This document shows positions 28,639-40,283 of a stretch of 64,000 nt of DNA, one piece after another. The notes beneath the pieces were generated by a model. It was not told the DNA's origin. It saw only the letters and a list, made by a program, of their open reading frames with translations, and made no database searches. A program made the translations under genes and the position numbers. This DNA is from a virus: IMG/VR virus record IMGVR_UViG_3300032285_001268, positions 1 to 64,000 of that record. One strand, given 5' to 3'. How positions within the stretch are numbered: the stretch's first letter is position 1; each line of letters starts with the position of its first letter.

Positions 28639-28646
28639 CCAGGCGT

Positions 28647-28657: not shown

Positions 28658-28666
28658 TAAGCAAGG

Positions 28667-28695: not shown

Positions 28696-28727
28696 ATAGG
28701 CTAGACAGTTAGACAAAGGAGCGAATG

Positions 28728-28991
28728 ATGTACACCGTAGAACTTTATAAACGAGATGCCCGTAAGAAGTCGGGCGAGCGTCTGTATAGTAAGACAGACT
28801 ATGACACGGATAACCTCAGCATGTTAGAGCACACGGTCAAGCATACCTATCGTGCCAGCCAGGGATTCCGCTATGAGATCCACGAGACCTATGTTAAGAA
28901 GCATAACCTAATGGGTGGGGGCGAGTTCACAGAACGCTATGACACTCCCCACTACTGTTCACCAGCATCAGAATCTTATTGGAGCATGTAA
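28728..28991 (+). CDS. Small early protein
   Basis: 87 residues from the second of two adjacent ATGs, which keeps the usual distance to GGAGCGAA. Basic N-terminal half, RYEIHETYVKK, His/Tyr-rich end. Its last codons supply the SD of the next gene. Not recognised. Confidence 0.55.
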   Translation: MYTVELYKRDARKKSGERLYSKTDYDTDNLSMLEHTVKHTYRASQGFRYEIHETYVKKHNLMGGGEFTERYDTPHYCSPASESYWSM

Positions 28992-28992
28992 T

Positions 28993-29280
28993 ATGGATAT
29001 CAAACAAGTAAACTCAGCTATCATGTTTGGTGATTGGACGGACGTAGAGCTCCGTAGCATGATCGATGCGGTCAAATGGAACCGTAGCCGATTGTCAGAC
29101 CGTACCAAGGCTGCGATCTGTGTAGGCGACAATGTAGAGTTCCTGTCCACTAAGACCGGGCGCTTGACCCGTGGCTTTGTAACCAAGAAGGCCATCAAGT
29201 ATGTCACAGTTGACACGGGCATGGGCTTGTGGAAGGTGCCAGCCAGCATGCTCACAGTGGTTGATAAAGAGCTGGCCTAG
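28993..29280 (+). CDS. KOW-like small phage protein
   Basis: 95 residues from the ATG at 28993; overlapping upstream sequence in frame is not needed. N-terminal helix (NSAIMFGDWTDVELRSMIDAVKW) and a small beta-barrel VGDNVEFLSTKTGRLTRGFVTKKAIKYVTVDT (in part). This pair of segments is conserved in T4-like aquatic phages. Nucleic-acid binding is plausible. Confidence 0.6.
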   Translation: MDIKQVNSAIMFGDWTDVELRSMIDAVKWNRSRLSDRTKAAICVGDNVEFLSTKTGRLTRGFVTKKAIKYVTVDTGMGLWKVPASMLTVVDKELA

Positions 29281-29283
29281 TGG

Positions 29284-29312
29284 TTGACAGGGCACCCAAA
29301 GCCCTGTATAAT
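29284..29312 (+). promoter_or_regulatory. Early sigma70 promoter
   Basis: TTGACA, 17-bp spacer, TATAAT. Confidence 0.9.
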
Positions 29313-29338
29313 TATGGCTTACGTGATAGGAGCGAACT

Positions 29339-29536
29339 ATGGCAAGAGTGGACGGGCAAGTGGTCAACATCGGGGACTGGGTCAGCTTCAAGAGCGACTA
29401 TGAGCAGTGTGGCAAAATTGTCAAAATCAACGGCGATCGGTTGACCCTATTCAGAGACAATGAGGGCTTTGGGGGCGACTACATTGGGGGTGAAAACTAC
29501 ACCATTGAGTTGGCCAGCGATTGTTGGATTGAATAG
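29339..29536 (+). CDS. Small KOW-like early protein
   Basis: 65 residues, all-beta pattern VNIGDWVSFKSDYEQCGKIVKINGDRLTL (in part), similar to small SH3/KOW barrels. SD AGGAGCGAACT. Function unknown. Confidence 0.6.
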   Translation: MARVDGQVVNIGDWVSFKSDYEQCGKIVKINGDRLTLFRDNEGFGGDYIGGENYTIELASDCWIE

Positions 29537-29537
29537 G

Positions 29538-29566
29538 TTGACAGGTCCGGCCCAAACTAGTATAAT
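29538..29566 (+). promoter_or_regulatory. Early sigma70 promoter
   Basis: TTGACA, 17-bp spacer, TATAAT; follows the preceding stop within two bases. Confidence 0.9.
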
Positions 29567-29598
29567 ATAGACATACAGTAAACGATTAGGAGCGAACT

Positions 29599-29943
29599 AT
29601 GAAATTACATATCACTACGCAATACATGGAGAACTACGGTGCCCACGATTGGGACGGTACTGGTGAGTGCCCTCAGTACTGGAAGTTCAAGGGTGGCGAG
29701 GACTACTTCTACCCATTGGGTTCAGCAGGCCGCTCAGCAGAGGCCATCGAGGAGTTGGTACACCACTTCCGTAAGGACATCGAGTGGGACGACATCGGTA
29801 GCCGTCAGTATATCGTAGGCTACGGTGTAGTGGCTGACGACTTCATGACTCCGTTTGAGAAGAGCCAGTTGGAGTACGAAGGTAGCATTACCTACCCTGC
29901 ACGGGTCCTTACAATCGAAGAAGATGTTTACTACGGAGCCTGA
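29599..29943 (+). CDS. Conserved early protein
   Basis: 114 residues: MKLHITTQYMENYGAHDWDG start and WKFKGGEDYFYPLG are conserved in phage small proteins of this type. Acidic, mixed alpha/beta. SD AGGAGCGAACT. Function unknown. Confidence 0.65.
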   Translation: MKLHITTQYMENYGAHDWDGTGECPQYWKFKGGEDYFYPLGSAGRSAEAIEELVHHFRKDIEWDDIGSRQYIVGYGVVADDFMTPFEKSQLEYEGSITYPARVLTIEEDVYYGA

Positions 29944-29944
29944 T

Positions 29945-30169
29945 ATGATTACGATGGAAACTAGACAGAACTACGATCAGCGTCACGGCGGCCCATTTGA
30001 TCGTGGATCCGCTGACTCGTGGTATGGCCGTCCTAGAGACCCACACTTCTATACAGGCGACACTGGCACTAGCCAACGGGTAACTGAGCTTACACCCGCT
30101 GAGGTACAGGCCTACTTGGCGGGCTATCAGTGGAACGAGCAGTTCGGCGGTAAGAAGGATTACGATTAA
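29945..30169 (+). CDS. Small early protein
   Basis: 74 residues from the ATG at 29945, one base after the previous stop; SD GGAGCC is inside the previous gene. Gly/Tyr/Asp-rich (RHGGPFDRGSADSWYGRP), with ELTPAEVQAYLAGY. Similar proteins occur in proteobacterial phages. Confidence 0.6.
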   Translation: MITMETRQNYDQRHGGPFDRGSADSWYGRPRDPHFYTGDTGTSQRVTELTPAEVQAYLAGYQWNEQFGGKKDYD

Positions 30170-30177
30170 GCTCTAGT

Positions 30178-30228
30178 CCCCAGCCACTGGGCCCTGCAAC
30201 TCGCCTGGGTTCCTCGCTGGGGCTTTTT
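30178..30228 (+). terminator. Intrinsic terminator
   Basis: CCCCAGC, 31-base loop with internal pairing, GCTGGGG, then CTTTTT. Ends the 29.6-30.2 kb transcript. Confidence 0.8.
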
Positions 30229-30239
30229 CACGATCAGCC

Positions 30240-30285
30240 TATAGAACCGACAGGTACCCTCGACGTCCACCCCCCTCTGTTCGAC
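30240..30285 (-). ncRNA. Candidate small RNA, copy 2
   Basis: Expected transcript of the minus-strand promoter 30292-30320. Shares CGAAC, GGGGGTGGACGT, GAG and CCTG blocks with the copy at 26.96-27.05 kb, and ACAG/CTGT arms here can pair around the G-rich element. Reads toward the terminator hairpin at 30.2 kb. 3' end uncertain. Confidence 0.45.
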
Positions 30286-30291
30286 TATCAT

Positions 30292-30320
30292 AGTATACGA
30301 TCTTGGGCCCAAAGTGTCAA
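30292..30320 (-). promoter_or_regulatory. Sigma70 promoter reading leftward
   Basis: Minus-strand TTGACA, 17-bp spacer, TATACT, with no CDS downstream on that strand. Confidence 0.7.
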
Positions 30321-30363
30321 CCCCAGGGGCAGAGGTGTGGCTAAAATACAACATCATTTTGGC

Positions 30364-30392
30364 TTGACATTTTGGCTAGTGTGCGCTATAAT
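30364..30392 (+). promoter_or_regulatory. Early sigma70 promoter
   Basis: TTGACA, 17-bp spacer, TATAAT. First promoter of the YC-depleted block; its spacer TTTTGGCTAGTGTGCGC is nearly repeated at 30888, 31207 and 32471. Confidence 0.9.
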
Positions 30393-30421
30393 AAGTTTTT
30401 TACAGCAAACAGGAGCCTACA

Positions 30422-30586
30422 ATGCAATATTTTACTGTGTATCTGCGCTACGATAACGTAGAAGATTTGTGTGCTGTTAATGCTACTAGCGCAGAGGAAG
30501 CTATTGCTAAAGCGCAAGCATACTACAATGCACACGCAGAATTTTTAGACACTACTGTAACAGTTTATAAAGCAGTAGCAAGTTGA
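30422..30586 (+). CDS. Small proline-free early protein
   Basis: 54 residues (MQYFTVYLRYDNVEDLCAVN start), Ala-rich helix after a short beta hairpin. SD AGGAGCC. Stop TGA is within the next -35. First gene of the YC-depleted block; the fold hint (FTVYL, then TSAEEAIAKAQAYY) recurs in the protein at 31887. Confidence 0.65.
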   Translation: MQYFTVYLRYDNVEDLCAVNATSAEEAIAKAQAYYNAHAEFLDTTVTVYKAVAS

Positions 30587-30611
30587 CATTTTGGACTAAG
30601 TGCAGTATAAT
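30583..30611 (+). promoter_or_regulatory. Early sigma70 promoter overlapping a stop codon
   Basis: TTGACA, 17-bp spacer, TATAAT. Confidence 0.9.
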
Positions 30612-30637
30612 TAACACTTACACACACAGGAGCACAC

Positions 30638-30862
30638 ATGTTTACAAATTGCATAGCCCGCGCTAAGTTAAACTACAACAAAAAATTAAAAACATATAAA
30701 CTGCTAGTAGCATTTATTAATAACGGAGACAGCATTACGCAACGCAATGCAAGTTTTATTAGCGGAGATTTGTGCGCAGAAACTATACAAAAAGACTTAG
30801 TGCGTGTGCTACAAACAGCACAGCAAACTCTGCGCACTAACAACATACAATTACTAGACTAA
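30638..30862 (+). CDS. Small proline-free early protein
   Basis: 74 residues, basic N-terminus (ARAKLNYNKKLKTYKLLVAF) and helical C-terminus. SD CAGGAGCACAC. Not recognised. In the YC-depleted block. Confidence 0.6.
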   Translation: MFTNCIARAKLNYNKKLKTYKLLVAFINNGDSITQRNASFISGDLCAETIQKDLVRVLQTAQQTLRTNNIQLLD

Positions 30863-30887
30863 ACTAGTAAACTAATACATAGCGCAT

Positions 30888-30916
30888 TTGACTTTTTGGG
30901 CTAAGTGCGCTATAAT
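30888..30916 (+). promoter_or_regulatory. Early sigma70 promoter
   Basis: TTGACT, 17-bp spacer, TATAAT. Confidence 0.9.
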
Positions 30917-30937
30917 TAGTTTTTTAAGGAGCGCAAA

Positions 30938-31186
30938 ATGGGACAGTACGCAAACACAGTTAACGCATACGCAGAAGACGAAGCACGAGCACGAGTTTAC
31001 AAAACGCAAAGACGTTTGCAAAGTTGGGGACAAACAAGTTACATGTTAAATGTAACTACTAACAAGTTCCGCAACGACATAGAAAAAAAAGCAGTTAAAT
31101 TAATTGCTAAGATGGAACTTGAAAAACTTGCGCAAATGCAAAAAGAGATTGCACAGTTAAAAGCAAAACATAGCATTACAGACTAA
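30938..31186 (+). CDS. Small proline-free early protein, helical
   Basis: 82 residues, long basic amphipathic helices ending in MELEKLAQMQKEIAQLKAKH, a short coiled coil. SD AAGGAGCGCAAA. Not recognised. In the YC-depleted block. Confidence 0.6.
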   Translation: MGQYANTVNAYAEDEARARVYKTQRRLQSWGQTSYMLNVTTNKFRNDIEKKAVKLIAKMELEKLAQMQKEIAQLKAKHSITD

Positions 31187-31206
31187 AGGGTTAATACATA
31201 GCGCAC

Positions 31207-31235
31207 TTGACATTTTGGACTAAGTGCGCTATAAT
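31207..31235 (+). promoter_or_regulatory. Early sigma70 promoter
   Basis: TTGACA, 17-bp spacer, TATAAT. Confidence 0.9.
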
Positions 31236-31260
31236 TAGTTTTTTAGCAGTAAGGAGCAGT

Positions 31261-31530
31261 ATGTTGTTTAACACAAAGCAAATACGTGCATTAGCACGTA
31301 ATGTCAGTAACGTAAGCGCAAGTTATACGGACAGGACAAATAAAAAAGACAAAACAAGCAAAAGACGTACAGTAGTATTTTGTTTTAGCAATGCACAGGA
31401 TGCGGACACTTTAGCAAACTACTTGCGAGCTACTTGTGCAAACGAAGTAACACAGACTTGTGTTGCTAGAGATTACATAACACGCACATGGGGCGGAAGT
31501 TATGTACGTGTAAAAGCAGATTTAGCATAA
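31261..31530 (+). CDS. Small proline-free basic early protein
   Basis: 89 residues from the ATG at 31261, placed by SD AAGGAGCAGT; upstream in-frame codons lie within the promoter. Lys/Arg/Thr-rich middle, then FCFSNAQDADTLANYLRATC. Not recognised. In the YC-depleted block. Confidence 0.6.
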   Translation: MLFNTKQIRALARNVSNVSASYTDRTNKKDKTSKRRTVVFCFSNAQDADTLANYLRATCANEVTQTCVARDYITRTWGGSYVRVKADLA

Positions 31531-31539
31531 GGAGTAAAC

Positions 31540-31701
31540 ATGCAGACATTTGTATACAAAAAAACACAAACACATTATTTGCACATAGATGCAGAAACGC
31601 AAGAGGAAGCAGACGCTATTGCAGACACAGTTGACATATATGCGGACAATGTATATGCAACGGAACTAGACGGTTGGGAATTAACAGATGGAGAAGTATA
31701 A
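31540..31701 (+). CDS. Small proline-free early protein
   Basis: 53 residues, acidic (QEEADAIADTVDIYADNVYATELDG). SD AAGGAGTAAAC at the end of the previous gene; stop overlaps the next start as TAATG. In the YC-depleted block. Confidence 0.6.
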   Translation: MQTFVYKKTQTHYLHIDAETQEEADAIADTVDIYADNVYATELDGWELTDGEV

Positions 31702-31877
31702 TGACAATACAATACGTAGATGCAAAGGCGGAGATTTTTAAATTACTTGCACAAGTGGAGACACTATTGCTAGAAGCAACTTGCGAAGGCGAGCAAATAG
31801 CGGGCACACGATGGGGTGACGAGATGTTTAACACACATGCGGAACTAGTGCAAATGGTTGACTACTACATAGACTAA
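31701..31877 (+). CDS. Small proline-free acidic early protein
   Basis: 58 residues from the ATG at 31701, coupled by TAATG and preceded by GGAGAAG. Acidic helix (AEIFKLLAQVETLLLEATCEGEQ). In the YC-depleted block. Confidence 0.6.
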   Translation: MTIQYVDAKAEIFKLLAQVETLLLEATCEGEQIAGTRWGDEMFNTHAELVQMVDYYID

Positions 31878-31886
31878 GGAGCGATT

Positions 31887-32054
31887 ATGACTAAGCTATA
31901 CCAAGTCACTTACACACTAACAGTGACAGAGGAAGTAGAAGCAGATAGCAAAGCAGACGCTGAGCAGGCGTTTAGCGAACTGTTTAGCGATGCTAACGAC
32001 TTGACCTGCTTGGGCAAGTATAAAGTTAAATGCTTGGGCAAAGCAGACGATTGA
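31887..32054 (+). CDS. Small proline-free early protein
   Basis: 55 residues. KLYQVTYTLTVTEEVEADSKADAEQAF resembles the small beta-hairpin plus helix of the 30422 protein (both have V-T-Y/T-V-Y then an A/E-rich helix). SD AAGGAGCGATT. Stop TGA is in the next -35. In the YC-depleted block. Confidence 0.6.
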   Translation: MTKLYQVTYTLTVTEEVEADSKADAEQAFSELFSDANDLTCLGKYKVKCLGKADD

Positions 32055-32079
32055 CATTTTGAGCAAAGTATAGTATAAT
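32051..32079 (+). promoter_or_regulatory. Early sigma70 promoter overlapping a stop codon
   Basis: TTGACA, 17-bp spacer, TATAAT. Confidence 0.9.
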
Positions 32080-32101
32080 TGTTTTTTAAGGAGCGAAACT
32101 T

Positions 32102-32458
32102 ATGCAAGCAACACAGTTTAAAGTTAGCAAAAAGCTAACACTAGTAGGCGTTACACAAGAAGACGACACTACTTGTACAGAGTACAAGTGCAAAGTAAAA
32201 GTGCAACTAGCAGGCGACAGTATTTGGGACTGTAATTTAAAAACAGTTACAATTAAAGAGATACACATTGCAGAGACAGACTGGGGCGATGGCGACACTA
32301 ACATACACATTGCAGTTGTACACACAGGCGGTGACGACAGCTGGCGCATATACACAGACAGCGGATTTGAGGCTGCTGTTAGCGACTTGCTAGGGACAGA
32401 CGTTAGTTTTACAGAGCAGGGCATGCAAGACGACGGCTACGCGAGTATGGAGTTGTAA
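32102..32458 (+). CDS. Proline-free acidic early protein
   Basis: 118 residues, beta-rich (KVSKKLTLVGVTQEDD, KCKVKVQLAGDSIWDC, NIHIAVVHTGGDDSWRIY) and net acidic. SD AAGGAGCGAACTT. The gene contains no TC or CC at all. Not recognised. Confidence 0.65.
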   Translation: MQATQFKVSKKLTLVGVTQEDDTTCTEYKCKVKVQLAGDSIWDCNLKTVTIKEIHIAETDWGDGDTNIHIAVVHTGGDDSWRIYTDSGFEAAVSDLLGTDVSFTEQGMQDDGYASMEL

Positions 32459-32470
32459 TACATAGCGCAC

Positions 32471-32499
32471 TTGACTTTTTGGGTTAAGTGCGCTATAAT
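32471..32499 (+). promoter_or_regulatory. Early sigma70 promoter
   Basis: TTGACT, 17-bp spacer, TATAAT. Confidence 0.9.
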
Positions 32500-32526
32500 T
32501 AACACTTACACACAGCAGGAGCGAAT

Positions 32527-32853
32527 ATGTTTAATGCAAAAGATTTAGGCAAGCAGTTTATTAAGTTAGTGCAAGCTAAAGACACAGACTTAGTAGAAGA
32601 TATTGTTGACTACGACGGCGAGGATACTTACTTGCTAGACTGTTATGTAGACGACGGCGAAGCTACAGACTATGCTAGCATAGACGAGTTAATTGCTAAA
32701 GGCATTGACGGAATTGAAACTGTAGATACTGTAACAGTAATGGGTAGCGCAAGCGGCGACACACGCTGTTACAGCAATACTGTTACAGCAATAGTACTAG
32801 ACGATGGTACTAAGTGGATGGATGCGGCATACTACGATTTAATTTTTGCTTAA
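32527..32853 (+). CDS. Proline-free strongly acidic early protein
   Basis: 108 residues with many Asp/Glu and few Lys/Arg (DTDLVEDIVDYDGEDTYLLD). A DNA-mimic role is conceivable for such early acidic proteins but no family signature is seen. SD CAGGAGCGAAT is the exact complement of the loops at 40.0 kb. No TC or CC in the gene. Confidence 0.6.
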   Translation: MFNAKDLGKQFIKLVQAKDTDLVEDIVDYDGEDTYLLDCYVDDGEATDYASIDELIAKGIDGIETVDTVTVMGSASGDTRCYSNTVTAIVLDDGTKWMDAAYYDLIFA

Positions 32854-32862
32854 GGAGACTGT

Positions 32863-33051
32863 ATGAGCAACATGAGCAAAGCAATAGCATTGCATAAGGC
32901 AGTGCAGATGTTAGAGGAAGTAGACGCACTAGTGCAAAAAACACTAGGGGCTAGTGACGACTGTTACGATGTGCATTGTGCGCTGGAGGACTTGCAGGAT
33001 ACACTTGCAGGTTTTGCAGAGCAGTTAGAGGAAATGCAAATAACAGAGTAA
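32863..33051 (+). CDS. Small proline-free acidic early protein
   Basis: 62 residues, helical and acidic (LEDLQDTLAGFAEQLEEMQ). SD AAGGAGACTGT. An internal ATG at 32872 is possible. Last gene of the YC-depleted block. Confidence 0.6.
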   Translation: MSNMSKAIALHKAVQMLEEVDALVQKTLGASDDCYDVHCALEDLQDTLAGFAEQLEEMQITE

Positions 33052-33076
33052 AGTGTAGGGCTTTTGGGCAAGCTGG

Positions 33077-33105
33077 TTGACAGTTTGCCCAAATCGCAGT
33101 ATACT
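33077..33105 (+). promoter_or_regulatory. Early sigma70 promoter
   Basis: TTGACA, 17-bp spacer, TATACT; its 5' leader (TAGGCTAAGTTAACAAGGAGC) is nearly repeated after the promoter at 37433. Confidence 0.9.
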
Positions 33106-33132
33106 ATAGGCTAAGTTAACAAGGAGCGAACA

Positions 33133-33435
33133 ATGTTAAACATCAGCAAAATCGTAAAGGTCTACAACGGCAAAGTAGGTTGCATGTGCGGGTGTGGCGG
33201 CAAGTACAGCTACACAGCTGACGGGGCTACAAACTATGGCCCAGGCTATGACGTCTCCGACATGATTAACGAGCGTAGTGTACGCATTATTACAAAAAAG
33301 ATCCTCAGCAATCCTCTTGTCAAGTTTGAAGACAATTATGCTTATGTAGAGGACCGTGCCCGTAACAAGATGCAAATGGTTGTGTTCAAAGAGCCACAAG
33401 AGGTCTACAGCCCATTTGACACTTGTAACAGCTGA
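33133..33435 (+). CDS. Small early protein with GCMCGCGGKY motif
   Basis: 100 residues. Three Cys in CMCGCGGKYSY (about 17-27), likely a metal site or disulfide knot; the rest is mixed. The same motif occurs in small proteins of other phages. SD AAGGAGCGAACA. The next promoter's -35 lies in its last codons. Confidence 0.6.
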   Translation: MLNISKIVKVYNGKVGCMCGCGGKYSYTADGATNYGPGYDVSDMINERSVRIITKKILSNPLVKFEDNYAYVEDRARNKMQMVVFKEPQEVYSPFDTCNS

Positions 33436-33444
33436 CAGTATAAT
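33416..33444 (+). promoter_or_regulatory. Early sigma70 promoter inside a CDS end
   Basis: TTGACA, 17-bp spacer, TATAAT; the preceding stop codon is within the spacer. Confidence 0.9.
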
Positions 33445-33473
33445 TAAAACTTAAACACAGCAAGGAGCGAACC

Positions 33474-33719
33474 ATGCAGGTTAAAGAGCTAATTGAAGAA
33501 CTCAAGTACATGGACCCAGATGCCGAAGTACACTTCGCCTATAACTATGGCGATCACTGGCGCACTGAAGTGGCCCCAAAGGTCAGTCGGGTGCAGTCGG
33601 GTGCAGTGGAGTTTAGTGACTACCACCGCATGGACAAGGTAGCTGAAGAGGACGAGTGCTGGGACGAAGATACTGGCGATTGGAAAGAAGACGTCCGCAG
33701 GGTTGTGATTATTGATTAA
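33474..33719 (+). CDS. Conserved small early protein
   Basis: 81 residues: VKELIEELKYMDPDAEVHFAYNYGDHWRTEVAP is a pattern widespread in phage and plasmid small proteins (the rest in part here). Acidic C-terminus. SD AAGGAGCGAACC. Function unknown. Confidence 0.65.
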   Translation: MQVKELIEELKYMDPDAEVHFAYNYGDHWRTEVAPKVSRVQSGAVEFSDYHRMDKVAEEDECWDEDTGDWKEDVRRVVIID

Positions 33720-33739
33720 CCCGTAGAACTGAAGGGGAT

Positions 33740-33768
33740 TTGACAAGAGTCTCCTTTGGTGCTATAAT
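33740..33768 (+). promoter_or_regulatory. Sigma70 promoter for a non-coding RNA
   Basis: TTGACA, 17-bp spacer, TATAAT, expected start near 33775; no SD or ORF follows before the next promoter. Confidence 0.9.
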
Positions 33769-33774
33769 TGAGTT

Positions 33775-33964
33775 AAGTTAGAAATTAGGGGTTACCTACA
33801 CCGTTAGGCCCTTGGAGAGGTGGAAGCGTTCCGACGGGGACCTAGTATCCAGGGCAAGAAGGCAGACCTTCGGGCGAAGCTGGCGGGTAGAGTAGGCTGT
33901 AATGACGAAGGCAACTGACGCCCTGGAGACGGTCCTAGGCAGTTAGACCGGAGTTCCCCTAGTT
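33775..33964 (+). ncRNA. Structured non-coding RNA candidate
   Basis: About 190 bases between two consensus promoters with no usable ORF. Closing stem AATTAGGGG (33783-33791) with CCCCTAGTT (33956-33964); long-range pairing CCAGGGC (33849-33855) with GCCCTGG (33920-33926); hairpins GGAA/TTCC inside AGGT/ACCT (33818-33843), CTTC-GGGC-GAAG (33868-33879) and CGGTC/GACCG (33930-33950). The last arm overlaps the -35 of the next gene. GC is higher than its surroundings. It matches no RNA family I can name (not tmRNA, RNase P, 4.5S or group I intron core). Confidence 0.7.
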
Positions 33965-33991
33965 GACAACACTATCATTTGGTTGTATAAT
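33963..33991 (+). promoter_or_regulatory. Early sigma70 promoter
   Basis: TTGACA, 17-bp spacer, TATAAT. Confidence 0.9.
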
Positions 33992-34023
33992 ACATTTTTC
34001 AACAGTACTTAAAGGAGCGAACG

Positions 34024-34515
34024 ATGGGTACACGAAGCATGATTGCTATTCAAAATCCACATAGCAAACAAATCCGCGCAGTCTACTGCCACTGGGATGG
34101 CTACTTGGAGCACAACGGCGCTATCTTGCAGAAGCACTATGCCGCAAGCCCTAAAGTCAACAACCTTATTGCCTTAGGCGACTTGTCTAGCCTGCGCCCT
34201 GAGATTGGTGTGCAACACGCATTCAGCTCGCTTGATGTACCCAAGCAAGAGCAAGAGGCTTACGATAAAGAGCACGGCAACAGTTGCACGTTCTACGGAC
34301 GTGACAGAGGCGAGAAGGACGTGGGCTTTAAGGTGTTTGACACGCTGGCTAAGGCTTGCGATCACTACACTTGGAGCGACTACTACTACTGCTTCAAGTA
34401 CACTAAGGCCAGCGACTACACAGTTGGCGAGTGGCACTACAAGAAGAACGGCGAGCGTTGGAAGAAGCTGGCTCCTGCTATTGCTAAACTTGATCCAAAG
34501 GAGTGTGCAGAATGA
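34024..34515 (+). CDS. GTRS-type conserved phage protein
   Basis: 163 residues. MGTRSMIAIQ start and AVYCHWDGYLEHNGAILQKHY are conserved in a family of small phage proteins of unknown function. Tyr/Lys-rich C-terminal half. SD AAAGGAGCGAACG. ATGA overlap with the next gene. Confidence 0.7.
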   Translation: MGTRSMIAIQNPHSKQIRAVYCHWDGYLEHNGAILQKHYAASPKVNNLIALGDLSSLRPEIGVQHAFSSLDVPKQEQEAYDKEHGNSCTFYGRDRGEKDVGFKVFDTLAKACDHYTWSDYYYCFKYTKASDYTVGEWHYKKNGERWKKLAPAIAKLDPKECAE

Positions 34516-34727
34516 AAAAGGTAATTGTGCGCACAGAACTATATCAGGAACTTGAGGTTCCTGATAGCTGGGATAGGTATGATGTATACGATTTCCTAGC
34601 CGAGAACGAGAGCTTCCGTGAGGCTTTCCAAGGTGTAAGTAACCAAGATCAAACAGCCCGCATCCTAGACTTGGGTGTGGTTAATGAAACAGTAACAGAG
34701 ATGGGAGAAGAAGCATATGACGACTAA
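34512..34727 (+). CDS. Small acidic early protein
   Basis: 71 residues from the ATG at 34512 (ATGA overlap with the previous stop; SD AAAGGAG). VIVRTELYQELEVPDSWDRYDVYDFLAEN. Overlaps the next gene by 11 bases. Not recognised. Confidence 0.6.
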   Translation: MKKVIVRTELYQELEVPDSWDRYDVYDFLAENESFREAFQGVSNQDQTARILDLGVVNETVTEMGEEAYDD

Positions 34728-34896
34728 GGCCGGATATTATCGCAAGAAGGCTATGAGTGACAGCAGGTTTGCCACACTCTATGAGGACCCTACCTACGAG
34801 TTGCCCGAGGACAAAGAGTTTGACGGCCCGGGATTTATTGATGTGACAGGCTGGACAGCAGAAGAAGTGCGCCGCCTGGGTCACGCAGACGAATAA
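34717..34896 (+). CDS. Small early protein
   Basis: 59 residues, basic start then acidic (YEDPTYELPEDKEFDGPGF). Start preceded by GGAGAAGAAG within the upstream gene. Its stop codon forms the base of an anti-SD hairpin. Not recognised. Confidence 0.55.
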   Translation: MTTKAGYYRKKAMSDSRFATLYEDPTYELPEDKEFDGPGFIDVTGWTAEEVRRLGHADE

Positions 34897-34913
34897 CTAG
34901 TTCGCTCCTAGTT
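34895..34913 (+). promoter_or_regulatory. Hairpin displaying an anti-early-SD loop
   Basis: AACTAG, loop TTCGCTC, CTAGTT. AGTTCGCTCCT is the exact complement of the early ribosome-binding site AGGAGCGAACT. Overlaps the stop codon of the gene before it. Confidence 0.65.
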
Positions 34914-34930
34914 GCCCTTGAGGCCGGCAC

Positions 34931-34952
34931 GACCCCCTCCGAGATGGGGGTC
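34931..34952 (+). terminator. Probable terminator hairpin
   Basis: GACCCCC, 8-base loop, GGGGGTC, followed only by ACTTTA; a weak U tract. A second hairpin TGTGGC-TTTTTT-GCCACA follows at about 34967-34984. Confidence 0.5.
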
Positions 34953-34996
34953 ACTTTACAGCTAGACTGTGGCTTTTTTGCCACACTACCAGACCA

Positions 34997-35007
34997 GACC
35001 CCGCTGT
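34997..35007 (+). repeat. GACCCCGCTGT repeat, copy 5 (one mismatch)
   Basis: One base different from the other four copies, 8 bases before a -35 box. Confidence 0.55.
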
Positions 35008-35014
35008 AGCGCGG

Positions 35015-35043
35015 TTGACGCCCAAGCCAAAATCCTTTATAAT
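35015..35043 (+). promoter_or_regulatory. Early sigma70 promoter
   Basis: TTGACG, 17-bp spacer, TATAAT. Confidence 0.85.
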
Positions 35044-35067
35044 TACTACATAATGAAGGAGCGGGCA

Positions 35068-35208
35068 ATGAAGATCACTATCAAAATACCAAACAAAACT
35101 AGGGCACACCTAGTTCTATTTTGCAAGGACACACCCTTCAAGCAGAAGCGTGTAGAGAGCAAGATTAAATATAAACGTCAACCTAAGCACAAGGGGAAAG
35201 AGCTATGA
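35068..35208 (+). CDS. Small very basic early protein
   Basis: 46 residues from the ATG at 35068 (SD AAGGAGCGGGCA); more than a third Lys/Arg (KQKRVESKIKYKRQPKHKGKEL). Probably nucleic-acid binding. Overlaps the next start by 4 bases (ATGA). Confidence 0.6.
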   Translation: MKITIKIPNKTRAHLVLFCKDTPFKQKRVESKIKYKRQPKHKGKEL

Positions 35209-35453
35209 AGGGCCTAATCACCAACCAATGGGACAGGGATAACCTTAACTTCCTGCTCAATACCAAAGACAAAGATCTAAAGGATTGGCATGCACAGGCA
35301 GACGCAGACGATCTAGCCTATGCTCAGGAACTCTTGGCCGCCTACAGCCTAGAGCTGAAACTTCAGGCTGAAGAGCTCCGTATTGAGTGCGAAATGGATC
35401 TAAAGGGCGACTTTAGCCAAGCATTAGCCGTGATTGACAAGATCAAGTTTTGA
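35205..35453 (+). CDS. Small helical early protein
   Basis: 82 residues, acidic and helical (LNFLLNTKDKDLKDWHAQADADDLAYAQELL). Coupled to the basic protein before it. Its last codons contain the next -35. Similar sequences occur in phage early regions; function unknown. Confidence 0.6.
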   Translation: MKGLITNQWDRDNLNFLLNTKDKDLKDWHAQADADDLAYAQELLAAYSLELKLQAEELRIECEMDLKGDFSQALAVIDKIKF

Positions 35454-35462
35454 TACTATAAT
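35434..35462 (+). promoter_or_regulatory. Early sigma70 promoter inside a CDS end
   Basis: TTGACA, 17-bp spacer, TATAAT. Confidence 0.9.
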
Positions 35463-35490
35463 ATACACTTAAACAACAAAGGAGCGAACT

Positions 35491-35637
35491 TTGAAGACAA
35501 TGACACAGAAACTAGAGCGTGATCGCTTAAATCGGTTAAAGCGTGAGCGTAAAGCCAATCGTCAGTTTGTGCTAGGTGCAGTGATGCTGGCAACTATCTT
35601 TGTAACCCCCTTGGCCGTTGCGGCCTTACTTTCTTAA
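35491..35637 (+). CDS. Small membrane protein with TTG start
   Basis: 48 residues. The early SD AAAGGAGCGAACT places the start at the TTG at 35491; an ATG three codons on is the alternative. Basic N-terminal half (KLERDRLNRLKRERKANRQ) and one C-terminal transmembrane helix. Confidence 0.6.
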   Translation: MKTMTQKLERDRLNRLKRERKANRQFVLGAVMLATIFVTPLAVAALLS

Positions 35638-35652
35638 TCATAGGAGCGAACT

Positions 35653-36240
35653 ATGCCTAATTGGTGCAACAACTATCTCGAATTAACTCACGATGATCCA
35701 GCAATGATCACTCGTGCCCGTAAGGCCTTTGCAGACGGACGACTGCTGGACGAATTTGTGCCAGTGCCAGAGAGCCTACACATCGTAGCAGGTCGAGTAG
35801 GTGACGACAACGATCCCAAGCAGATTGAGCTTGAGGCACAGGAAAAGGCCAACCTTGAGACACATGGCTACGCCACTTGGTATGACTACTGCGTCAACGA
35901 GTGGGGCACCAAGTGGGATGTAGGTGGTGATGACTACAGCCCTGCAGATGAAAAAGACCCTAATCATACTCGTATGAGTTTTGATAGTGCCTGGGCACCC
36001 CCTGTGCCTGCTATGGCCAAGTTCCAGGACTTGGGCTTCCGAGTCAAGTTGATCTACTGGGAGTCGGGCATGTGCTTCGCAGGCCTGTTTGACGAGAACG
36101 GTGATGACTTCTATGAACTTGGCGGTATGACTGCTGATCAAGTGGCTGAAGAGATCAACCCAGAGATCGACGAGTGCATGTGCATCAGCGAAAGTATGCG
36201 TGAATGGGAAGAAGAAAACGCTGAAGAGGAAGAAGAATAA
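35653..36240 (+). CDS. Api92/DUF1281-like phage protein
   Basis: 195 residues. MPNWCNNYLELTHDD is the hallmark start; WDYCVNEWGTKWDVG-like and FDSAWAPPVPAMAKFQDLGF complete the ferredoxin-like Api92 domain. Acidic C-terminal tail (EENAEEEEE). Found in many phages and plasmids; function unknown. SD AGGAGCGAACT. Confidence 0.75.
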   Translation: MPNWCNNYLELTHDDPAMITRARKAFADGRLLDEFVPVPESLHIVAGRVGDDNDPKQIELEAQEKANLETHGYATWYDYCVNEWGTKWDVGGDDYSPADEKDPNHTRMSFDSAWAPPVPAMAKFQDLGFRVKLIYWESGMCFAGLFDENGDDFYELGGMTADQVAEEINPEIDECMCISESMREWEEENAEEEEE

Positions 36241-36243
36241 CGG

Positions 36244-36272
36244 TTGACTGCCTTACCAAAAGGCAGTACAAT
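36244..36272 (+). promoter_or_regulatory. Early sigma70 promoter
   Basis: TTGACT, 17-bp spacer, TACAAT. Confidence 0.75.
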
Positions 36273-36301
36273 TAGAATTAGTAAAACAACAAGGTACAGT
36301 A

Positions 36302-36448
36302 ATGAAAACCAACAAAGAAAAGAACTTAGAACATGATGCAAGGATGCAGGCCAAGGTTAGACCAAAGCCTGTAGAGTATAATTGGGAACCATTGGATGCA
36401 GTTGTAAAGCAATGGCGCCAAAGGAGTTATCAGAATGAGCAGGCTTGA
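36302..36448 (+). CDS. Small basic early protein
   Basis: 48 residues, KTNKEKNLEHDARMQAKVRPKPVEYNWEPLD. SD is weak (AAGGTACAG). Overlaps the next gene by 14 bases. Confidence 0.5.
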   Translation: MKTNKEKNLEHDARMQAKVRPKPVEYNWEPLDAVVKQWRQRSYQNEQA

Positions 36449-36716
36449 ATTCTATGCTCGTCCGTTAGTTGCCTTTGATGCACACCTAAAAGAACATCGT
36501 CAGATCTACTATCAGTTTGTCAAAACGATGAGTTGGGGTGCTAGTCCATATAGGTTTATCTGCCCAGAAGATCACGGTGGCGATTTGGTTACCATGATCC
36601 AAAGACAGATCAACGACTACTACATCCACAAAGAATTTGGCGATCGACCACCGAAACCTGAGCCTTTGGTTCGCCAAAAAAGAAAGAAAACGGTTGACAA
36701 GGGCTCAAAAAAGTAA
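36435..36716 (+). CDS. Small early protein
   Basis: 93 residues, basic C-terminal tail (RQKRKKTVDKGSKK). SD AAAGGAGTTATC inside the previous gene. The next -35 TTGACA lies in its tail codons. Not recognised. Confidence 0.55.
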   Translation: MSRLEFYARPLVAFDAHLKEHRQIYYQFVKTMSWGASPYRFICPEDHGGDLVTMIQRQINDYYIHKEFGDRPPKPEPLVRQKRKKTVDKGSKK

Positions 36717-36722
36717 TATAAT
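36694..36722 (+). promoter_or_regulatory. Early sigma70 promoter inside a CDS end
   Basis: TTGACA, 17-bp spacer, TATAAT. Confidence 0.9.
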
Positions 36723-36778
36723 TTGAACATGCTAAGAAATTGGCATTAATTTTAACACACACAGAAAGAGGTAACAAA

Positions 36779-37144
36779 ATGGCTACAGATAAAACATTTA
36801 ATGTATTTGGTGTTTCTAAACTCAATGGCGAGTACAAAGTTCGTTTCGCGAATGACGTGATGCGTATCAAGGTATTGGCCAAACATGGTCATGAAGATAT
36901 CACTCTTGTTGACTTGGAGAAGTCAGTGAGCAAGTATGAAGGTATCAAGGCTATTGCCACTATGCCAGAGTTTGCCAATGCGGCTGCTCAGAGTGCGATC
37001 GCTGAATACTTGGAAGAAAAAGCACCTAAGGCTAAGGTCTCTAAGCCTGTGGCAAAAGCCGCGAAGACTCCGGTAGCGAAGACTACCAAAGCGCCTGCGA
37101 AAGCAGTTCAGAAAGTTACTGAGAACGAAGACGCTCCTTTCTAA
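36779..37144 (+). CDS. Histone-H1-like protein with SSB-like acidic tip
   Basis: 121 residues from the ATG at 36779, which follows AGAGGTAAC. Residues 1-75 form a small mixed domain (FNVFGVSKLNGEYKVRFANDVMRIKVLAKHG). Residues 80-113 are a Lys/Ala/Pro repeat (KPVAKAAKTPVAKTTKAPAK), like H1 tails. The last residues ENEDAPF copy the acidic DDDIPF tip of bacterial SSB, which recruits repair and replication proteins. DNA binding plus capture of SSB partners is inferred. Confidence 0.6.
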   Translation: MATDKTFNVFGVSKLNGEYKVRFANDVMRIKVLAKHGHEDITLVDLEKSVSKYEGIKAIATMPEFANAAAQSAIAEYLEEKAPKAKVSKPVAKAAKTPVAKTTKAPAKAVQKVTENEDAPF

Positions 37145-37147
37145 TCT

Positions 37148-37330
37148 ATGTTCATTCAGTACGAAGTCTGGGGCACACTCAACGGGCATGAAGAGCTCCT
37201 TGAGTGTGTAGCAACCCTAAAAGAAGCAGAAGAGTTGGCAGAAGAAGAAAGGTTCTTTGCTGATGAGATTTGGATCCTAGAGGACACGGACGGCGACCTG
37301 AAAGAAGTTAAGCGTTACCAGGGCCTATAG
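37148..37330 (+). CDS. Small acidic early protein overlapping a tRNA
   Basis: 60 residues, acidic and helical (TLKEAEELAEEERFFADEIWILEDTDG). Its last codons and stop are the first ten bases of the tRNA. No strong SD. Not recognised. Confidence 0.5.
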   Translation: MFIQYEVWGTLNGHEELLECVATLKEAEELAEEERFFADEIWILEDTDGDLKEVKRYQGL

Positions 37331-37397
37331 CTCAGTTGGTTAGAGCAGAGGACTCATAATCCTTTGGTCCCTGGTTCGAGTCCAGGTGGGCCCACCA
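37321..37397 (+). tRNA. tRNA-Ile(CAU), lysidine type
   Basis: 77 bases, full cloverleaf: acceptor GGGCCTA/TGGGCCC, D-loop TAGCTCAGTTGGTTAGAG, anticodon loop ACTCATAAT, T-arm GGTTCGAGTCC, encoded CCA. The CAU anticodon with the GAGGACTCATAATCCTTTGG arm looks like the AUA-reading tRNA-Ile2 (C modified to lysidine) more than elongator tRNA-Met. The 5' end overlaps the preceding CDS. Confidence 0.9.
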
Positions 37398-37400
37398 CTC

Positions 37401-37430
37401 AAAGGTGTTGTAGAAATACAACACCTTTTC
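37401..37430 (+). terminator. Intrinsic terminator after the tRNA
   Basis: AAAGGTGTTG, 8-base loop, CAACACCTTT, then TC. Stem of 10 bp. Confidence 0.8.
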
Positions 37431-37432
37431 TC

Positions 37433-37461
37433 TTGACATTTTGGCTAGGCCGTGCTATACT
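37433..37461 (+). promoter_or_regulatory. Early sigma70 promoter
   Basis: TTGACA, 17-bp spacer, TATACT. Confidence 0.9.
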
Positions 37462-37487
37462 ATAGGCTAAGTTAACAAGGAGCAGTG

Positions 37488-37679
37488 ATGGGTTACAGAG
37501 TTCTTAACACCGTAGACACGATGCGTGACAATTATGGAGCACGTAAAGGCCTAGAAGGTCCTTACAATTTCAACGGCAGAGTGCTTTACTATGATCCTAA
37601 GGAAGGTAAGTATTACGATCCCAGCACAGACTTCTACGTGAGTCATGACGAATATTTTCGGTTGACAGGCCTCATCTAA
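37488..37679 (+). CDS. Small early protein
   Basis: 63 residues, Tyr/Asp-rich (VLYYDPKEGKYYDPSTDFYVSHDEYF). SD AAGGAGCAGTG. The following promoter starts inside its 3' end. Not recognised. Confidence 0.6.
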   Translation: MGYRVLNTVDTMRDNYGARKGLEGPYNFNGRVLYYDPKEGKYYDPSTDFYVSHDEYFRLTGLI

Positions 37680-37690
37680 ACCTGTATAAT
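37662..37690 (+). promoter_or_regulatory. Early sigma70 promoter inside a CDS end
   Basis: TTGACA, 17-bp spacer containing the TAA stop, TATAAT. Confidence 0.9.
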
Positions 37691-37718
37691 TATACACATA
37701 CACAGCAAGGAGCGAACC

Positions 37719-37913
37719 ATGCAAGTACACTTTATCGACACAGGAACACAGCAAGACTATGGCTTCAAAGAAGTAGAAGTCCACAGCTTCAAAATGGATC
37801 ATGCTGATGCACCCTACGCCATCGTTAGCAACCCATTCTTTCCAGGAGACAGCCTACGGGCCGAGTATAACTTTTACAACGGTAGCCTGCAATGGACGGT
37901 TGACGTCAGTTGA
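37719..37913 (+). CDS. Small early protein
   Basis: 64 residues, beta-rich (MQVHFIDTGTQQDYGFKEVEVHSFKM). SD AAGGAGCGAACC. Not recognised. Confidence 0.6.
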   Translation: MQVHFIDTGTQQDYGFKEVEVHSFKMDHADAPYAIVSNPFFPGDSLRAEYNFYNGSLQWTVDVS

Positions 37914-37928
37914 TTTTGGCAGTATAAT
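37900..37928 (+). promoter_or_regulatory. Early sigma70 promoter inside a CDS end
   Basis: TTGACG, 17-bp spacer containing the TGA stop, TATAAT. Confidence 0.85.
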
Positions 37929-37952
37929 TAACATATTAACAAGGAGCGAACC

Positions 37953-38153
37953 ATGTACGATATAGTCCAAAACCCAATTCCATTCAATGGATTCTTTTAC
38001 ACACCAGAATCATTTGCCCAACTGCAAGAGCGCATCGAACAGTTGCCAGCAAAGGAACGAGCACTTGTCTACACATTCGTAACACAGGCTATGAATCTGT
38101 GCTATCGAGAAGTAGAAGACAAGATCTTAAGCCGTGAAATCTTTGCACAATAA
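37953..38153 (+). CDS. Small early protein
   Basis: 66 residues, helical (ESFAQLQERIEQLPAKERALVYTFVTQAMNLCYREV). SD AAGGAGCGAACC. Not recognised. Confidence 0.6.
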   Translation: MYDIVQNPIPFNGFFYTPESFAQLQERIEQLPAKERALVYTFVTQAMNLCYREVEDKILSREIFAQ

Positions 38154-38162
38154 GGAGCAGTT

Positions 38163-38315
38163 ATGACTACAGCATTTGAAGCAGTTATCTACGCACTCTA
38201 CTACACATGGCCCATGTGGGCTTTCCTGGCCTTGCTGAGTCTAGCCCTGTTCGTAGAAGAAGGCATCAAAGCCTACAGCCTGCGCAAGATGGTTGACAAC
38301 CCCACGCTTTGGTAA
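38163..38315 (+). CDS. Small membrane protein
   Basis: 50 residues, one long hydrophobic helix (about 8-33) and a charged C-terminus. SD AAGGAGCAGTT. The next promoter's -35 is in its coding sequence and its stop is in the spacer. Confidence 0.6.
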   Translation: MTTAFEAVIYALYYTWPMWAFLALLSLALFVEEGIKAYSLRKMVDNPTLW

Positions 38316-38321
38316 TATAAT
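38293..38321 (+). promoter_or_regulatory. Early sigma70 promoter inside a CDS end
   Basis: TTGACA, 17-bp spacer, TATAAT. Confidence 0.9.
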
Positions 38322-38351
38322 TAAGACTTAAACAGCAACAAGGAGCGAACC

Positions 38352-38600
38352 ATGAAGCTAAACGAAACCCGCACCGTCCCATATGGCACCATCCAGTATG
38401 TAGAGGACGAGGACTTTGGCAAGTGCTATCTAGTGCGCCACAACTTCATCAAACGCGAGATCTTCGCTGACACAGTCAAAGAAGCCAAGCAAGAGCTGGA
38501 AGAACTGCAGAAGGAAATGTCAGAGCTGAACTCTGCTATCTCTAAGCTTCAACGCTATGGCTACAAGGTCTACAAAGAAGTTGACAGCCTGTACGCTTGA
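38352..38600 (+). CDS. Small early protein with coiled coil
   Basis: 82 residues. Beta start (RTVPYGTIQYVEDEDFGKCYLVRH) then a coiled coil (KEAKQELEELQKEMSELNSAISKLQ). SD AAGGAGCGAACC. Not recognised. Confidence 0.6.
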   Translation: MKLNETRTVPYGTIQYVEDEDFGKCYLVRHNFIKREIFADTVKEAKQELEELQKEMSELNSAISKLQRYGYKVYKEVDSLYA

Positions 38601-38609
38601 GCATATAAT
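38581..38609 (+). promoter_or_regulatory. Early sigma70 promoter inside a CDS end
   Basis: TTGACA, 17-bp spacer containing the TGA stop, TATAAT. Confidence 0.9.
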
Positions 38610-38641
38610 TAACACTTACTTAAACAACATTGGAGCGAACA

Positions 38642-38965
38642 ATGATTACAGCAGAACAAATCCAAGCAGGCAAGACTCTAGCAGAAGCGGCTGGTCGTGC
38701 AGAGTACGCCAAATGGGGCGGTGACCGTGGTGCTTGTGGCTTTGCTTGGGTAGAGGTCTACGTGGACCGTACTAACAGCAAACAGGCCAAAGAGCTGATC
38801 AAGGCAGGCTTCCGCAAGGACTACAAACCAAAATGCTTGAGCATGTGGGATCCAGCAGGCTTGCCCGTGCAGAACATCGACATCAAAGAAGCAGGCGCTT
38901 ATGCCTATGCCAACTACCTTACAGCACTGGGCTTGCGGGCCTATGCGGGTAGCAGACTAGACTAA
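38642..38965 (+). CDS. Conserved early protein
   Basis: 107 residues from the ATG at 38642 (S-D TGGAGCGAACA). GDRGACGFAWVEVYVDRTNSKQAKELIKAGFRKDY is a pattern found in other phage small proteins. Function unknown. Confidence 0.65.
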   Translation: MITAEQIQAGKTLAEAAGRAEYAKWGGDRGACGFAWVEVYVDRTNSKQAKELIKAGFRKDYKPKCLSMWDPAGLPVQNIDIKEAGAYAYANYLTALGLRAYAGSRLD

Positions 38966-38972
38966 CCAAAAC

Positions 38973-39003
38973 GTTAGGGCACATGCCCTAACTGTAGTAT
39001 AAT
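38973..39003 (+). promoter_or_regulatory. Atypical early promoter with palindrome in place of the -35
   Basis: TATAAT at 38998-39003, but the -35 position is inside the palindrome GTTAGGGC-ACAT-GCCCTAAC (38973-38992). Candidate operator or activator site controlling the AAA+ gene. Confidence 0.6.
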
Positions 39004-39038
39004 TAATTTATTAACAGCGTAACAAAGGAGCGTAACAA

Positions 39039-39920
39039 ATGGTAGGTAAAGTCGTAACTAGTAAGATGCTAATGGCACTACAGCAAGATACCAAAAGCCT
39101 GGCCCAAGAGCCAGTTAAGAAAGACATCAGCACAGAGACTGATGAGCAGATCCTCAACCGTCTGCGTGATCGCTTTGAGATCTTAGATGACATGACCCGT
39201 GCAGTCAAGAAGGGCGATGTACGTGCTATGATCGTCACAGGCCCTCCAGGTGTGGGCAAGAGCTTTGGCGTTGAGAAAGTACTCAGCAAGCACGATGTGT
39301 TCGCTAACGTAGCAGACGACAAGAAGCTGAAGAAGTACGAAGTGGTCAAGGGTGCGATGAGCGCCATTGGCCTGTACTCTAAACTCTACGAATACTCAGA
39401 TAAGAAGTCAATCCTAGTATTCGACGACTGTGATAGCGTATTGCTTGATGACCTTAGCTTGAACATCTTGAAAGCCGCTCTGGATACCAGCAAGCGCCGT
39501 ATGATCCATTGGAACACAGACTCTAGGCTCTTGCGTTCAGAGGGTGTGCCCAACTCATTCGAGTTCAAGGGTGGTGCTATCTTTATTACCAACATCAAGT
39601 TCGATCACGTCAAGAGCAAGAAGCTACAGGATCACTTGGAAGCACTAGAGTCACGTTGCCACTACCTAGACTTGACTATCGATACAGAGCGTGAGAAGGT
39701 CCTGCGCATCAAGCAGGTAGTTACCGAGCACGGTATGTTAGATGACTATGAGCTGTCAGATGAAGCCAAGCTGGATGTGGTTGCGTTCGTAGATGCCAAC
39801 AAGCATCGCATGCGTGAGCTGAGCTTGCGTACAGTACTTAAGGTAGCAGACCTTAGAGCTAGCTTCCCGGACAAGTGGACTAGCGTAGCAGAGGTTACTT
39901 GTATGCGTGGCAGCCGCTAG
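39039..39920 (+). CDS. AAA+ ATPase (phage MoxR/DnaA-like)
   Basis: 293 residues. Walker A GPPGVGKS (68-75), Walker B ILVFDDCDSVL (125-135), sensor 1 FITN (about 187-190) and an Arg-containing ESRCHYLDL (about 210-218). Similar ATPases occur in early regions of many phages; partner unknown. SD AAAGGAGCGTAAC. Its promoter differs from the others, with a palindrome replacing the -35, so it may be separately regulated. Confidence 0.8.
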   Translation: MVGKVVTSKMLMALQQDTKSLAQEPVKKDISTETDEQILNRLRDRFEILDDMTRAVKKGDVRAMIVTGPPGVGKSFGVEKVLSKHDVFANVADDKKLKKYEVVKGAMSAIGLYSKLYEYSDKKSILVFDDCDSVLLDDLSLNILKAALDTSKRRMIHWNTDSRLLRSEGVPNSFEFKGGAIFITNIKFDHVKSKKLQDHLEALESRCHYLDLTIDTEREKVLRIKQVVTEHGMLDDYELSDEAKLDVVAFVDANKHRMRELSLRTVLKVADLRASFPDKWTSVAEVTCMRGSR

Positions 39921-39992
39921 GGCTCAGACCCTACATGCCCGTGTAGAGTATACAGAGCAAGCCGGCCCAGACTGGCAGACTCTGTGCAGTGA

Positions 39993-40090
39993 GAACAACT
40001 GACGTGATTCGCTCCCACTAGGTTGTTCGGTAGTGTGGTCCCTGACACCGTAATTCCGATTCGCTCCCGGTTGTGTCAGGGATTTTTTTT
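39993..40090 (+). ncRNA. Candidate anti-SD small RNA (3'-UTR derived)
   Basis: Hairpin 1: GAACAAC (39993-39999) with GTTGTTC (40022-40028), inner GTG/CAC, apical loop ATTCGCTCC. Hairpin 2: TCCCTGACAC (40039-40048) with GTGTCAGGGA (40073-40082), loop again with GATTCGCTCCC (40058-40068), then eight T. The loop sequence is complementary to the early SD GGAGCGAAT/C. No clear promoter of its own is seen; likely processed from the AAA+ mRNA. Confidence 0.55.
40039..40090 (+). terminator. Strong intrinsic terminator
   Basis: 10-bp stem TCCCTGACAC/GTGTCAGGGA followed by TTTTTTTT; end of the main early series. Confidence 0.9.
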
Positions 40091-40283
40091 GGCTGGGGTA
40101 ACCGGGGTGGTGGGGCCAATAGAGGGGTGGGAGGCTTATATGTTAGCAACTACTAACTTAGCTAGCTAGCGCATGGGTACCGAGCTTTTTTCCACCATCT
40201 AAAAGTTTAAGTACTTCTTTATAATTTTTTACGCGGCAATTTTTTTAGGCTGCAGGACCCATTTCGGGCTATATACTATTACT

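Follow-up and report, generated by a model that had tools for sequence, protein, structure and literature searches.

The early region of IMG/VR virus record IMGVR_UViG_3300032285_001268 ends in two adjacent hairpins (positions 39993–40090) whose loops are complementary to the Shine–Dalgarno (SD) sequences of early genes, raising the question of what such a tandem element does and on which genes it acts. The window analyzed here is a stretch of 64,000 bases (positions 1–64,000) of this 185,262-base record; the relatives compared with it are metagenomic contigs. We consider it likely that the element is a tandem 3′-end anti-SD RNA that pairs with about 15 early sites and thereby reduces translation of the early regulon. 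Covariation across relatives supports the pairing, and the repression, its timing and the active form of the RNA are proposed as a model.

Genomic setting of the element

The element lies in the 3′ UTR of an early operon, behind the last gene of the early region (39039–39920, plus strand), and may be attached to an early mRNA while it acts. This gene encodes an AAA-type ATPase related to T4 nrdC.10 (phrog_1250), as indicated by PHROG (E = 4.7e-84) and Pfam AAA matches and by tblastn matches to T4-like phages and to Pseudomonas phage PA5oct, with which the window phage shows a distant relationship (ATPase 47%, terminase 53%). Between 27119 and 38609 (11.5 kb), the plus strand carries 15 perfect σ70 consensus promoters (TTGACA-17-TATAAT), all with the 17-nt spacer and all ahead of small early genes. 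The region is presumed to be early from these consensus host-type promoters and from the gene order, and the 15 promoters suggest that it yields many separate early transcripts. Convincing terminators between the early genes of the window are few, so many transcripts could share a 3′ end at 40090. A tRNA-Met(CAT) gene is also located within the early region, at 37321–37397.

Two hairpins present the same 9-nt loop

The window contains exactly two copies of the 11-mer GATTCGCTCCC, at 40006–40016 and 40058–40068 on the plus strand, as against 0.02 expected from shuffles, and the remainder of the 185,262-base record has none. RNA folding of 39985–40092 produced two adjacent hairpins. Both have a short inner stem and expose the 9-nt loop AUUCGCUCC, whose nine bases have an unpaired probability of 0.93–1.00. 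In hairpin 1 (39993–40028, plus strand), the loop at 40007–40015 (unpaired probability 0.97–1.00) is closed by GUG/CAC, and the fold and pair list place the inner stem at 40004–40006/40016–40018, followed by an internal loop and the lower stem GAACAACU/GGUUGUUC. In hairpin 2 (40037–40084, plus strand), the loop at 40059–40067 is closed by CCG/CGG, with the inner stem at 40056–40058/40068–40070 and a lower stem of 12 bp. The stable stem of hairpin 2 runs into eight T's (40083–40090), the stem and U run of an intrinsic terminator; a simple terminator scan missed it because its loop is longer than the scan allows. Exact-match counting and folding thus confirm the two adjacent anti-SD stem-loops described in an earlier note on this DNA, and the fold also upholds its assignment of the second hairpin as an intrinsic terminator.

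Searches for a known counterpart were negative. No Rfam 15 family matches the element at E values up to 1, Rfam searches of 14 relatives returned tRNAs only, and a nucleotide search of the element region in a phage collection gave no match. In the papers searched on anti-SD RNAs, phage sRNAs, structured RNAs and jumbo phages, no earlier description was found.

The loop complements an extended SD of the early genes

The loop complement GGAGCGAA precedes 15 plus-strand gene starts between 27.4 and 38.6 kb. The first copy (27373–27380) precedes the gene at 27384–28091, which matches Pfam GP88 (PF17338). Further copies are found at 29329–29336 (gene start 29339), 29589–29596 (29599), 32090–32097 (32102), 33123–33130 (33133), 33464–33471 (33474), 34014–34021 (34024), 35643–35650 (35653), 37709–37716 (37719), 37943–37950 (37953), 38342–38349 (38352) and 38632–38639 (38642). 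Two sites read GGAGCGAA(T), at 28718–28725 (gene start 28725/28728) and 32518–32525 (32527), and a possible target at 35481–35488 precedes a short open reading frame at 35500 with a spacing above the usual. Six additional plus-strand starts, within 27163–39032, follow the weaker site GGAGCG, at 27163, 28366, 30928, 31878 (GGAGCGA), 35058 and 39027; the last belongs to the ATPase just upstream of the element, whose own SD, GGAGCGT, matches the loop over only 6 nt. The earlier note had counted at least 16 early genes with the full site and six more with GGAGCG. The six hold, and the first figure becomes 15 plus-strand starts; one more copy is present at 26201, on the minus strand.

The complementarity between loop and SD that is common to the targets comprises 8 nt and extends to 9 nt at two genes (GGAGCGAAT); the full 11-mer complement GGGAGCGAATC is absent from every target. 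Loop position 1 is a conserved A, whereas most targets carry C there. Averaged over the 15 target genes, the predicted duplex with the loop has an energy of −14.2 kcal/mol, compared with −7.4 kcal/mol for the duplex with the 16S tail.

To gauge this match against chance, we drew up a mechanical list of the hairpins on the two strands of the 185,262-base record (14,171 in all) and counted complements of loop 8-mers. With the minus-strand copies of the target sites themselves set aside, only the two hairpins of the element have a loop complementary to 15 gene start regions, and the runner-up loops reach 6. The CGA extension behind GGAG is found at 15 of 33 early sites versus 2 of 45 outside the early region (Fisher p = 1.7e-5), where genes nearly throughout have GGAG without it; the gene caller's choice of start partly uses the GGAG match and is blind to the bases 3′ of GGAG.

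Conservation of loop and stem pairing in nearer relatives

A first circle of 80 viral loci was fetched with the ATPase protein alone, blind to the loop. All 80 carry one to three copies of GATTCGCTCCC within 330 nt behind the ATPase gene, in some loci with the rare variant GAATCGCTCCC beside it. Members of a second ATPase subfamily have one such hairpin 590–850 nt downstream, at the operon end between gene end and terminator, and it is present in nearly all members whose contig extends far enough. The order in this subfamily is hairpin, ordinary terminator, consensus σ70 promoter and then a next operon with GGAGCGA sites. A third group shares this arrangement, with the hairpin directly 3′ of the stop codon of a gene of about 100 amino acids. 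By comparison, the element is absent from the 15 nrdC.10 loci of cultured phages that were examined.

Because a sequence-based alignment of hairpin 2 breaks the stem register, stem pairing was assessed by swapping arms. Across 101 nonredundant first-circle flanks, the best helix averages 8.7 bp for a hairpin's own arms versus 4.5 bp for swapped arms. Judged in this way, the stem sequence is free among first-circle relatives, the stem pairing is maintained and the loop is fixed. The loop of hairpin 2 is common to 29 relatives, with different stems and T tract. Furthermore, in a scan that allowed any base at the four positions preceding CTCC, the variants in hairpin context differed only at the second loop base (TTCG, ATCG, CTCG), so the complement of GGAGCGA does not vary in those hairpins.

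The target side follows the element. Of the unique SDs, 307 of 695 in the first circle and 174 of 418 in the second subfamily have CGA behind GGAG, compared with 1 of 91 in element-free viral contigs and 5 of 299 among 73 distant ATPase relatives that lack the AUUCGCUCC loop. CGA is the top extension in 87 of the 92 element contigs with enough sites, and is found at none of the examined sites of T4, KVP40, PA5oct and Aeromonas phage 25.

The copy number of the motif varies. In five loci (L083, L091, L107, L108, L119), two to three short anti-SD hairpins (CCTAGGATTCGCTCCCCTAGG, AACCGATTCGCTCCCGGGT) follow one another in series, and some of these loci contain tRNA genes. Ten others (L456, L458–L462, L464, L465, L477, L478) have a second TCGCTCC copy 20–25 nt upstream of the hairpin, so some phages own a looped and a second anti-SD copy.

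These data also bear on a reading at the DNA level, in which GGAGCGAA and its inverted copy would be recombination, packaging or REP-like sites. The target motif and the loop do form inverted repeats around the ATPase gene, and unrelated REP-like repeats containing GATTCGCTCCC occur in some bacterial genomes. We nevertheless find this reading highly improbable, given that the sites stand at SD distance from start codons and that the loops sit on the transcribed strand, by terminators, in hairpins whose pairing is maintained. Bacterial matches to the tandem pattern numbered 44, and those read proved to be REP-like repeats or repeats in coding genes, different from the phage element; two copies alone are therefore unspecific, and the hairpin context is what is specific. 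REP-like GATTCGCTCCCACAGG repeats were observed in L129, L134, L143, L160, L161 and L164 (Thalassolituus, Oleibacter) and in L125, L126, L135 and L147 (Natronospirales), and appear unrelated to the phage element.

Loop and SD change together in distant relatives

Distant ATPase relatives were retrieved, once more irrespective of the loop, with a mixed alignment as query; the PA5oct protein alone had found no viral contigs. In one distant group, the SD is GGAGCCAAC, and a hairpin behind the ATPase gene carries the exact complement in its loop (..GGTTGGCTCC), followed by a terminator. In another, the SD is GGAGCTA, and the hairpins are of the type CTGTAATTCA-CTCTAGCTCC-TGAATTACAG. Folding-based (MFE) loop detection missed the CCA class, whose G-rich loop pairs internally, and we therefore used a matrix of exact complements. 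Among 126 nonredundant loci, the complement of the locus's own extension occurs within 950 nt behind the ATPase gene in 67 of 69 CGA, 15 of 15 CCA and 7 of 8 CTA loci, compared with about 1.5–3% for complements of foreign extensions in the same loci. GGAGCCA phages thus carry UGGCUCC (15/15) and GGAGCTA phages UAGCUCC (7/8), mostly within a 3′ UTR hairpin. In addition, matches of at least 9 nt between the ATPase SD and the following 500 nt were found in 25 of 69 distant relatives, versus 0.5 in shuffles.

In the ATPase protein tree, the CG class forms one supported clade of 58 rows. A second clade, of 19 rows, unites the CTA and CCA classes and contains the change between the two. Independent joint switches of loop and SD are accordingly few on this tree, at least two and perhaps three if a TGA group is counted. 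At eight loci (L507, L512–L514, L517, L520, L531, L536), the ATPase SD is GGAGTGAGA and an 8–9 nt complement, TCTCACTC(C), lies 29–77 nt downstream; these loci form a possible fourth loop/SD class.

If loop and SD base-pair, compensatory changes of this kind across lineages are what one would expect. The earlier note had listed covarying SDs in related phages among its checks, and a loop drifting independently of the SD as a refutation. On the large scale the opposite of such drift is seen in the CGA and the CCA and CTA classes, which lie in separate clades, and two contigs discussed below (G007 and G009) depart from the pattern; its interpretation that the loops base-pair with the early SD set gains support from the covariation in the 126 loci. 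The same classes speak to the proposal that a host or phage protein binds the loop, with the SD match secondary. That proposal would account for the 9-nt loop with its invariant closing G–C pair, the partly conserved internal loops, the several copies per RNA and the conservation of the loop even where the SD match is 6 nt. Three SD classes, however, have three loops, each complementing its own SD, and a loop that follows the SD class is not expected of a protein site; we judge the proposal improbable.

Loops without a matching SD

Some loci do not fit a simple pairing rule. G007 and G009, with ATPases 65–66% identical, have three perfect AUUCGCUCC stem-loops each (L173 9928–10025 and L182 5562–5660, respectively), and their early SDs are GGAGCGT/C, a 6-nt match. 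The loop persists there despite the differing SDs, indicating that loop and SD do not co-evolve strictly. Many genes of these two contigs start behind CCCAGTGAGAGA in place of an ordinary SD. A YUNR U-turn is a feature of fast-pairing antisense loops, and the conserved loop bases UUCG fit YUNR, so a U-turn or a protein contact may explain conservation without an SD match. In the CTA clade, a few loci (L503, L544, L490) have the loop and a differing ATPase SD as called.

A further case is G001, in which two GATTCGCTCCC-loop hairpins lie directly behind a good σ70 promoter (L169 15577–15650; also L094, L104) and neither an ATPase gene nor a GGAGCGA SD was found in the 68-kb contig. Such loops without matching phage SDs, together with the sponge-like look of multi-copy loops, would suit a sponge or weapon against host RNA, either a small RNA with GGAGCGAA or host mRNAs, rather than phage genes. 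The phage CGA extension, by contrast, is restricted to the region and the clades that have the element and tracks the element's changes, and an action on host RNA is in our view quite improbable.

A model for early shut-off and its origin

For the pairing with early SDs that we favor, the following course is proposed. The two hairpins would hold the 9-nt AUUCGCUCC loop open, and the loop would pair with the extended site GGAGCGAA of about 15 early genes and more weakly with six more, keeping ribosomes off them. Because the element is made with the early mRNAs, the amount of the RNA would follow early transcription, and the early gene set would be turned down by negative feedback after a delay. 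The active form could be a processed, 3′ UTR-derived small RNA or the mRNA 3′ end itself.

The second form leads to a purely cis-acting alternative, in which the 3′ UTR loop folds back on the SDs of its own polycistronic mRNA and exerts autoregulation without a free sRNA. In the lineages examined, the ATPase gene and the element behind it share an operon, and convincing terminators between the early genes of the window are few, as this alternative would have it. In an 88-kb CTA fragment (G024), moreover, the ATPase gene is the only one with a matching SD (GGAGCTA), and the hairpin stands directly behind its stop codon (L565 13500–14545, corresponding to 33500–34545 of the record), an apparent single-gene feedback. 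In the clade of the window, on the other hand, about 15 targets lie behind 15 perfect σ70-type promoters and can therefore be on separate transcripts, which favors action in trans. The next operon of the second subfamily also has the target SD, and targets behind a terminator and a promoter of their own can be reached only in trans. We regard action in cis alone as possible but rather doubtful.

The small target sets of distant relatives suggest how a regulon of the window's kind could have arisen. Besides the single gene of G024, matching SDs precede three genes in the part of G025 that was read and five in G021 (CCA), which leads us to think that feedback on the ATPase came first and that the clade of the window then built a regulon. 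The ancestral role was thus probably feedback on the neighboring ATPase gene, with other early genes adopting the extended SD later. More broadly, we lean towards the view that a widespread lineage of uncultured large phages uses an RNA-coded early shut-off. An "address" of about four bases after GGAG, specific to each lineage, would label genes as belonging to the early regulon, and hairpins with its antisense in the 3′ UTR of the ATPase operon would read it, as a co-evolving private code that has grown from feedback on one gene to a regulon of some 15–20 genes.

Comparison with known systems

By mechanism, the features that align the element with anti-SD RNAs are a loop complementary to the SDs of 15 genes over 8–9 nt and compensatory change between relatives. 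Staphylococcal RNAs such as RNAIII use C-rich hairpin loops to pair with the SDs of several mRNAs; the phage element is distinct from RNAIII in loop sequence, in host and in its covariation with a phage-specific SD. Bacterial 3′ UTR-derived sRNAs come from mRNA 3′ ends and contain the terminator. Like them, the phage element lies at an mRNA 3′ end and closes with an intrinsic terminator, whose long U tract would suit Hfq.

A closer resemblance is to the α-r14 or "cuckoo" RNAs of Alphaproteobacteria (NfeR1 of Sinorhizobium meliloti), which display redundant, ultraconserved, unpaired anti-SD motifs on diverging stems and silence mRNAs through base pairing in their translation initiation regions. 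NfeR1, a stress RNA encoded on the chromosome, uses the motif CCUCCUCCC against mRNAs of its host (PMC10746234). The phage element similarly consists of several hairpins with an identical anti-SD loop and divergent stems. It differs in that it is phage-encoded, has the loop AUUCGCUCC rather than CCUCCUCCC, is predicted to target a phage-specific extended early SD, and has a loop that changes with the SD between phages. Since sequence, host and target differ, the phage element is not a member of α-r14.

With regard to function, the RegB endoribonuclease of T4 inactivates early mRNAs at the SD GGAG, selecting among them by the bases that follow (PMC3014915). The proposed element would likewise be a phage device against early mRNAs at GGAG, with targets chosen via the 3′ bases. 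RegB, however, is a protein that cuts RNA together with S1, whereas the device proposed here is an RNA loop. Profile searches of the record for RegB (PF10715) and RegA gave no match, and control searches were equally silent. According to the same review, none of the small trans-acting regulatory RNAs that T4 might encode had been characterized functionally (PMC3014915).

If the reading is true, phages would have a new means of timing their program, an RNA directed at a whole early regulon via an extended SD. The joint change of loop and target between lineages makes the pairing testable with simple compensatory mutants. The extended SD would moreover serve as a sequence rule that predicts regulon members in uncultured phages, and the loop/SD classes would provide naturally occurring private SD/anti-SD pairs, such as are sought for the orthogonal control of translation.
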